The notes beneath the pieces were generated by a model. It did no database searches, was not told the origin of the DNA, and worked only from the letters and a program-made list of their open reading frames with translations. A stretch of 30,402 nucleotides of DNA from a virus: positions 1-30,402 of IMG/VR virus record IMGVR_UViG_3300032093_009701. One strand, written 5' to 3'. Below, one piece after another: positions 28,197 through 30,072 of this stretch. A program made the position numbers and the translations under genes. The first letter of the stretch is position 1. Each line of letters starts with the position of its first letter.

Positions 28197-28312
28197 AAAA
28201 TCTTTTTAACGAGCGCAGTGAGCGTATTAATGGTTGGTTCGCAATGATTGGTTTCGTTGCAGCCGTTGGTTCTTACCTTATTACTGGTCAAATTATTCCT
28301 GGCGTGTTCTGA
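28193..28312 (+). CDS. hli: Short high-light-inducible protein
   Basis: 39 aa, nearly only the chlorophyll-binding helix: ERSERINGWFAMIGFVAAVG followed by SYLITGQIIPG. ERxNGxFAMIGF is the core Hli motif, with Trp in place of the usual Arg after NG. AAGGAG lies about 7 nt before the ATG at 28193. The ATG overlaps the upstream stop. It is a second, smaller Hli distinct from that at 27278. Confidence 0.9.
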   Translation: MKNLFNERSERINGWFAMIGFVAAVGSYLITGQIIPGVF

Positions 28313-28894: not shown

Positions 28895-29593
28895 ATGCTT
28901 ATAGATCTTCATAACTTTTTTAAGTTTTATGACGAAAAAAATCCAAAGCACGTTGCAGCAATTGATCAACTCGAAAAGGATTTGCTTTTAAAGTCTCAGG
29001 ATTTGCTTGAAGATAGTGCTAATTGGGTGAGAATCTATAGATCAAAAGAAGACAAACCACAATCAACAATTTTACCCGTTCCCTTCTATCCACAAACAGA
29101 CAATTATAAAGATGCAAATAGAACTTGCAATTCTTCTGCCTGTGCTATGTGCCTTGAGTATTTCAAACCAGGTACTTTAAAAGGAGCAAAAGGCGACGAC
29201 GCCTATCTACAAAAAGTTTTTTCAATCGGTGACACTACTGATCATTTGGTTCAGACCAAGGTTCTTGCGTCATACGGTATTAAATCCAGTTTCTCCTACA
29301 GTCTTACTTTTGATGATCTTGATAGAGAGCTTGCCGCTGATAGACCTGTTGTTATTGGTATTCTTCATCGCGGTCCTTTATCTAACCCCACGGGAGGACA
29401 CATGGTAGTTGTGATTGGCAAAACTCCTAGTGGAGATTATGTCGTAAATGATCCTTATGGATCACTCAACGATGGTTATACTGGTGCAGTAACTAATGGT
29501 AAAGGTGCTGTTTATAAGAGAAGTGACCTTTCTCGTAGGTGGTGCCCTAAAGGTAATGATGGATGGGGAAGACTATTTGATGTAAAAAAGTAG
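28895..29593 (+). CDS. C39-like cysteine peptidase, endolysin N-terminal module
   Basis: 232 aa. Residues 62-200 are peptidase C39-like: VPFYPQTDN, catalytic Cys78 in RTCNSSAC, His169 in GGHMVVVIG and Asp186 in VNDPYG. It would cut a peptide, possibly the peptidoglycan stem. No signal peptide. The N-terminal 55 residues are helical and uncharacterised. The reading frame ends at TAG 29591 directly after AAAAAAG, and the -1 frame continues into a GH24 lysozyme, so a share of product is probably a 392-aa fusion. Confidence 0.82.
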   Translation: MLIDLHNFFKFYDEKNPKHVAAIDQLEKDLLLKSQDLLEDSANWVRIYRSKEDKPQSTILPVPFYPQTDNYKDANRTCNSSACAMCLEYFKPGTLKGAKGDDAYLQKVFSIGDTTDHLVQTKVLASYGIKSSFSYSLTFDDLDRELAADRPVVIGILHRGPLSNPTGGHMVVVIGKTPSGDYVVNDPYGSLNDGYTGAVTNGKGAVYKRSDLSRRWCPKGNDGWGRLFDVKK

Positions 29594-29628
29594 AAACGCC
29601 AACTAATAATACTGTTCCGTTAGTTGGC
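29584..29628 (+). promoter_or_regulatory. Programmed -1 ribosomal frameshift signal
   Basis: The slippery heptamer A AAA AAG (29584-29590) is in the 0 frame, immediately before the TAG stop. A 7-nt spacer follows, then a perfect 9-bp stem GCCAACTAA (29598-29606) / TTAGTTGGC (29620-29628) with a 13-nt loop. All three elements have the geometry of bacterial -1 frameshift sites. There is no T tract, so the hairpin is not a terminator. Confidence 0.75.
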
Positions 29629-30072
29629 ATTGAATTGATAAAAGAGTTTGAGGGTTGTCATTTAAATGCTTATCCAGACCCACTAACAGGAGGGTTGCCA
29701 ATTACTATTGGTTGGGGAAGCACTAAAGATTTTAATGGGCAACCATTTAAAATAGGAAAAAGAATCACTCAAGAGTATGCAGATAGACTTTTAGTTTTTG
29801 ATGTTGAAAATAGATTTCTTCCTTCTATACAAAAAATACCTTACTGGAGTGAGATGAATGACAACCAAAGAGGGGCTTTACTTTCTTTTGCATATAATCT
29901 TGGTGCAGGTTTTTATGGTGGAACTAACTTCAATACTATTACAAAAGTCTTGAAGAATAAGGAATGGGATAAAGTACCTGATGCCTTGTATCTTTATAGA
30001 AATCCTGGTTCTAATGTGGAGGCAGGATTGGCAAGAAGAAGAAAAGCAGAAGGGGACTTATGGAAGTCTTAA
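29590..30072 (+). CDS. GH24 phage lysozyme, -1 frame extension of the C39-like gene
   Basis: 160 residues in the -1 frame. A Thr/Pro/Asn-rich linker (VETPTNNTVPLVG) is followed by GIELIKEFEG, the exact start of GH24 lysozymes. The catalytic Glu of EFEG, Asp of YPDP and the TIGWGST block are present, as are NQRGALLSFAYNLG and the C-terminal GLARRRKAEGDLW. It cuts the glycan chains of peptidoglycan. No ATG lies near the domain start; an independent start would need TTG 29635, which falls inside the conserved first helix and has no Shine-Dalgarno. A frameshift fusion is the simplest reading; a sequencing error or recent mutation is the alternative. Confidence 0.87.
   Translation, partial: VETPTNNTVPLVGIELIKEFEGCHLNAYPDPLTGGLPITIGWGSTKDFNGQPFKIGKRITQEYADRLLVFDVENRFLPSIQKIPYWSEMNDNQRGALLSFAYNLGAGFYGGTNFNTITKVLKNKEWDKVPDALYLYRNPGSNVEAGLARRRKAEGDLWKS

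Follow-up and report, generated by a model that had tools for sequence, protein, structure and literature searches.

The window analysed here is a virus record of 30,402 bp from IMG/VR, in which two overlapping frames on the forward strand would encode a C39-like peptidase and a GH24 lysozyme. Window positions 5242-28824 form a long stretch of host-like genes, including those for NAD synthase, a sugar dehydrogenase, epimerases, a GT11 glycosyltransferase, an OprB/SLH porin, S-adenosylhomocysteine hydrolase, a phosphate-transporter subunit, ferredoxin and peroxiredoxin. The ORF at 28234 gave an hli match, which was dropped because the start of this ORF overlaps a short hli-like frame. The features of the two-frame gene are:

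28895..29593, + strand: zero-frame ORF, N-terminal module (about residues 1-50) and C39-like peptidase, 232 aa, stop TAG at 29591-29593
28895..29044, + strand: N-terminal module LHNFFKFYDE..., which also precedes the lysozyme in relatives
29578..29580, + strand: TGA closing the -1 frame just 5' of the heptamer (window sequence)
29584..29590, + strand: slippery heptamer A_AAA_AAG (window sequence; the same in 60 of 63 distinct heptamer junctions)
29590..30072, + strand: -1 frame, linker VETPTNN and GH24 lysozyme, 160 codons and a stop at 30070-30072
29591..29597, + strand: 7-nt spacer, its first bases being the zero-frame stop (sequence and fold)
29598..29607, + strand: 5' arm of the stem (window fold; covariation in relatives)
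29619..29628, + strand: 3' arm of the stem, within the PLVG codons of the lysozyme frame (window fold; covariation in relatives)
29635..29637, + strand: TTG, the sole start-like codon ahead of the lysozyme core, without SD-like sequence

The zero frame matched Peptidase_C39_2 (PF13529) over residues 60-188 at 7e-13, and a structure model of the peptidase (pLDDT 85.5) matched the C39-like structure 3erv at E 5.5e-5. C78, H169 and D186, which from the motif are taken to be the catalytic residues, are invariant in 43 aligned sequences. By profile, modelled fold and these Cys/His/Asp positions, the domain qualifies as a C39-like peptidase. The N-terminal module has no Pfam match, the Pfam stretch starting only at residue 60, and a profile search of PDB sequences gave no match to it either. 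The -1 frame matched Phage_lysozyme (PF00959) at 2.8e-23 and PDB lysozymes at 1.7e-15 at best. Its E, D and T (at FEG, YPD and TIG) align with a solved lysozyme and presumably have the catalytic roles usual in GH24. Family profile and Glu/Asp/Thr positions fit a GH24 enzyme. An endolysin function, i.e. degradation of host peptidoglycan at lysis, is inferred from the domains and from PHROG endolysin matches. All 105 phage records matching the window peptidase are Synechococcus phages or cyanophages.

The original prediction, made from this DNA alone, had described a heptamer at the peptidase end before an in-frame TAG, a stem-loop seven nucleotides later, a complete GH24 lysozyme in the -1 frame with no good start of its own, and products of 232 and 392 aa. 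All of these were recovered. The C39-like ORF ends GTA AAA AAG TAG, both domains are intact (Pfam), and the predicted products would measure about 25.9 and 43.9 kDa, respectively. The stem comprises nine Watson-Crick pairs and a loop-closing U-G pair around a loop of 11 nt. Up to the LIKEFEG helix of the lysozyme, the -1 frame contains no ATG, GTG or TTG except the TTG at 29635. Given that the TGA at 29578 closes the -1 frame, a ribosome could enter it only within about ten bases; the corresponding opening starts 10 or 13 nt 5' of the peptidase stop in 55 of 63 junctions. With a zero-frame X_XXY_YYZ heptamer and a structure a few nucleotides 3', the window site meets the definition of a -1 frameshift site. 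As a measure of chance, A_AAA_AAG accounts for 0.045% of codon positions (120 of 266,155) and 9.0% of Lys-Lys pairs (120 of 1329) in long ORFs of related loci. Frameshift structures are described as starting 5-8 nt downstream (PMC4066793). The 60 nt 3' of the heptamer have a folding energy of -13.3 kcal/mol (z -2.8; 2 of 200 dinucleotide shuffles fold as well), but with 75 nt and simple shuffles z is only -1.5, so the window stem alone is not decisive. A candidate SD-like stimulator upstream of the heptamer, GGGGAAG, was rejected as indistinguishable from conserved Gly-Trp-Gly-Arg codons. An attempt to reach the host tRNA-Lys set through the S-adenosylhomocysteine hydrolase of the window found no marine Synechococcus or Prochlorococcus among the 80 matches listed.

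Recurrence of the junction in relatives

IMG/VR contains at least 596 relatives of the peptidase. In the best 80 of these, which were kept, GH24 lies in the -1 frame 58 times and in the same frame three times, while none was found in 19. The full set consists of 219 fetched loci and the window, with some contigs present twice and some ending near the gene; it comprises 105 loci with a -1 overlap, 38 with a separate lysozyme, 13 fusions, 52 with the peptidase only, seven with the lysozyme only and five with neither. Collapsing by sequence left 73 distinct -1 junctions, 63 of them with an in-frame heptamer: A_AAA_AAG in 60 (61 under other collapse windows), T_TTT_TTT in two and C_CCA_AAG in one. 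Among the remaining ten, four overlap by ATGA (L036, L055, L073, L074) and six have an ATG 3' of the stop (L130, L134, L135, L138, L157, L158). A heptamer near the peptidase end (last 33 nt plus 12) occurs in 64 of 73 -1 junctions, in 0 of 30 separate-gene loci, in 1 of 39 peptidase-only loci (CCCAAAT) and in 2 of 10 fusions. These two fusions are seven-A versions of the junction, and the other eight distinct fusions have no heptamer at the join. The -1 linker of the window lines up with the VE of plain fusions.

The AAA and AAG codons are fixed across the 60 A_AAA_AAG junctions. The codon preceding them varies (GCA 33, GTA 23, ACA 3, GAA 1), that is, Ala, Val, Thr or Glu may stand before the two lysines, and all 60 codons end in A; the A-ending fraction of these codons in the loci is 0.41 for Ala, 0.29 for Val, 0.30 for Thr and 0.68 for Glu. 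On the peptidase tree, this residue changed at least 13 times (61 rows), and a minimum of 20 changes fell on the codon of a Gly lying eight codons ahead of the stop (58 rows). The sequences are related and the counts not independent; since the rows are related, we put no probability on the conservation of the third-base A. On this evidence the heptamer appears to be under synonymous constraint.

In 61 of 63 junctions the longest helix begins 2-8 nt downstream, and at 11 and 12 nt in the other two. Stems of several groups differ in sequence and occupy the same place. Arms from the same junction score 21.0 against 12.6 (sd 0.6) for permuted arms, with 0 of 20,000 permutations as high; because arms are shared within a stem group, only 23 of 63 junctions have their own 3' arm as the best or joint-best partner. 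The same score is 11.7 for 32 distinct separate loci and 15.6 for 10 fusions, the latter raised by the two seven-A fusions (31 and 29), in which the stem is kept. In a first group alignment (18 sequences), 97.4% of cells are paired and four pairs show double changes, a count reached by 0 of 500 shuffles. A second (17 sequences) is 96.1% paired; its two double-change pairs are weak evidence (42 of 500 shuffles as high), its covariation score was reached by 0 of 500, and three of five measures were met. Anchoring at the first Gly codon of the lysozyme placed 61 of 63 junctions, of which 58 were kept (L041, L087 and L170, with fewer than 6 of 12 pairs, were dropped). In these 58, the Gly wobble base forms A-T 22 times, T-A 21 times and C-G eight times, with G-U or no pair in seven, showing that linker bases covary with synonymous positions of the lysozyme. 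Simple-shuffle z values fall below -2 for no more than 41 of the 63 stems, and several are around zero or positive (L047 excepted), chiefly at ATG-overlap junctions and in L185 and L186. Judged by covariation, the structure counts as conserved. The comparison with related phages, which the original prediction had named as a check, found heptamer, short spacer and covarying stem again in 63 distinct junctions and also in isolates. As far as sequences can tell, it shows the heptamer, the stem and the linked lysozyme frame to be under joint selection.

Proposed mechanism and rival explanations

One gene very probably gives rise to two endolysin forms by programmed -1 frameshifting, a reading made without protein, ribosome or read data but strongly supported by the relatives. 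Ribosomes stopping at the TAG would release the 232-aa N-terminal module and C39-like peptidase. In others, delayed by the hairpin 7 nt downstream, two tRNA-Lys would slip in tandem on A_AAA_AAG and set the reading back by one base; these ribosomes would read on in the -1 frame to yield a 392-aa module-peptidase-lysozyme. In other systems it is established that heptamers of this kind, given a stimulator downstream, allow tandem slippage (PMC4066793). That the slip takes place in this phage or in cyanobacteria, how efficient it is, what it is used for and that a trans-frame product exists are inferred, as there are no proteome or profiling data. It is likewise an inference that the enzymes are brought to the wall by the N-terminal module and that it matters in what ratio the two forms are made.

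Ribosomes might instead end at the peptidase stop and restart nearby, making the lysozyme as a separate protein. An ATG overlaps the stop in 6 of 63 heptamer junctions (S-SRM01 included), where the stems are short, and the four distinct ATGA junctions lack a heptamer altogether. Yet in 30 of 63 heptamer junctions the lysozyme frame has no ATG, GTG or TTG up to LIKEFEG, the window offers only its TTG without SD, and an SD-like sequence precedes a start-like codon of the lysozyme frame in 1 of 63. A restart would also leave the fixed heptamer and the covarying stems unexplained, and we consider it very unlikely as a general account. It stays open at the six ATG-overlap junctions, and at these and the ATGA junctions restart and frameshifting could act together.

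Slippage of the polymerase on the A run, giving mRNAs with an extra A that are read straight through, seems less likely still. Three loci (L054, L056 and L069; two distinct) do carry seven A in their DNA, which joins peptidase and lysozyme in one frame with the stem kept; the extra A could mean either that the shift was lost recently or that the homopolymer was misread. Furthermore, three S-CAM7 isolates have a run of eight T with arms GTAGAACC/GGTTCTAC, long enough to make polymerase slippage a real option there. The run in the window, however, is only six A closed by a G, whereas a described example of transcriptional slippage has a run of 11 A, and another gene 9 A (PMC4256274). Such slippage requires no stem, fixed spacer or G, and cannot apply to C_CCA_AAG or to the G_GGA_AAG of a sister group (below).

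Finally, the gene could be decaying, or its A run could have been misread in sequencing or assembly: these are metagenome contigs, a one-base change closes the gap and plain fusions exist. This is highly improbable in view of 63 distinct junctions, a heptamer and stem under selection, two intact domains and the isolates. S-PM2 has the junction GCA AAA AAG TAA with arms CTCTACTTC and GGAGTAGAG in AJ630128, NC_006820 (same length) and the deletion mutant LN828717, the break being present in two separately sequenced records. Since both S-PM2 and the S-CAM7 isolates carry such junctions, assembly error cannot explain the family. In the records examined, the deposited lysin annotation covers 72 aa (S-PM2, two S-CAM7) or 90 aa (NC_031927). 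These pieces (L081, L087, L351-L354; S-PM2, S-CAM7) are C-terminal and start 3' of the catalytic region, as placed by the catalytic positions usual in the family. With only the 72- or 90-aa lysozyme piece annotated, the putative long endolysin has escaped notice in laboratory phages.

A second slippery site and other architectures

The N-terminal module precedes GH24 in all 38 distinct separate-gene loci, which include six of the ten heptamer-less -1 loci. It shares a frame with the lysozyme in 28 (24 by pattern; L133, L142, L149 and L152 by eye). In the other ten it occupies a different frame and ends ...CPHCGKPLGK or ...CPHCGKSLGK on G_GGA_AAG and a stop, with GH24 in -1. A scan for short module ORFs in the best 80 loci gave 23 loci with 14 distinct junctions, 14 of 14 with G_GGA_AAG, compared with 55 places where module and GH24 share a frame. 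The second site was noted in L107, L114, L118, L119, L121, L128, L136, L140 and L163 and in part of L355-L376. The hairpins begin a few nucleotides downstream, mostly six. In nine distinct stems, 63 of 63 outer cells are paired and six of seven pairs show double changes; here the 3' arm was picked as the best complement, which favours pairing. A second alignment was left uncounted, groups with different loop lengths being out of register. The G_GGA_AAG heptamer is of the lambda type. A_AAA_AAG, G_GGA_AAG and C_CCA_AAG are given as the most efficient heptamers in E. coli (PMC4066793).

A tree of 134 peptidases (tail omitted) was built by a quick method that left 55 of 131 inner branches open. 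The A_AAA_AAG rows are intermixed with peptidase-only, ATGA and seven-A rows, and the three T_TTT_TTT rows, in another part of the tree, form a starred group nested within a larger one of 11, also starred, whose other members are plain fusions. The tree does not distinguish gain from loss. Homologues of the kinds once named as refuting the prediction do occur, as 13 uninterrupted fusion loci (three by an extra A) and 38 separate lysozymes. Plain fusions and nearly all separate lysozymes sit in other parts of the tree than the A_AAA_AAG rows. A structure model of one plain fusion, L172, reached a pLDDT of only 68.8. Two loci have the reverse order in one frame, N-terminal module, GH24 and then a C39/C70-like peptidase (L240:2330-3466, L247:2318-3466). 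Phage MA01 (L089:2489-3754) encodes a 422-aa protein in which a C39-like domain is followed by about 200 aa without Pfam match (E 0.01).

Given that relatives provide GH24 with the same module by plain fusion, module duplication or a second slippery site, the likely use of the shift is to couple some lysozyme to module and peptidase. Going further, endolysins of T4-like cyanophages might be a recoding hot spot. On this view, the same lysozyme would have been placed downstream of a slippery site on three or more independent occasions, with A_AAA_AAG and T_TTT_TTT following the peptidase and G_GGA_AAG following the N-terminal module alone, and the reason would be that lysis requires a fixed proportion of lysozyme-free short and lysozyme-bearing long forms sharing one targeting module. 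This we offer as a tentative idea, more doubtful than the frameshift itself.

Comparison with known systems

Known frameshifts in phages mainly serve tail-assembly, head and tail proteins. Their use for tail proteins is likewise stated in a phage study (PMC7260188). The tail-assembly chaperone and head and tail protein cases resemble the cyanophage gene in a -1 shift that gives a C-terminally extended minor product, but they concern structural and assembly proteins, involve no lytic enzyme and share no homology. E. coli dnaX encodes a DNA polymerase subunit and its shift leads to the shorter product, whereas the cyanophage shift would lead to the longer one and add an enzyme domain. The likeness lies in the heptamer, the downstream stem-loop and the two product lengths: dnaX is described with A_AAA_AAG, a downstream stem-loop and two products of unequal length (PMC5009743, PMC4066793).

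Among endolysins, the closest in content are plain C39-GH24 fusions (phage ACG-2014f; PHROG 3617, which both window frames match by sequence), with the same domains in the same order but a single open frame. Lys170, CD27L and CTP1L each come as a long and a short endolysin from one gene by internal starts (PMC6023083). There, an in-frame internal start yields a binding domain, in contrast to a frameshift that would add a second enzyme domain. A Lactococcus lysin from another host and phage group is said to be possibly frameshifted, judging by the title of a 1994 paper and its citation in PRFect. PRFect cites that paper in counting lysins among known frameshifting genes, so lysin frameshifting as such is not claimed as new. 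Overlapping lysin frames are also shared with the split lysin of Lactobacillus phage Sabazios, for which its authors proposed ribosomal slippage (PMC7260188).

No description of a cyanophage endolysin frameshift was found among the open-licence PMC titles and abstract starts listed, and "endolysin" has 0 matches in the first 300,000 of the 475,107 characters of a 2016 recoding review. Frameshifting is known; the new part is its repeated use in one endolysin family. The comparative case for a frameshift in a lytic enzyme, recurring with different slippery sites within one family, is strong, and it makes the dependence of lysis on the ratio of enzyme forms testable.
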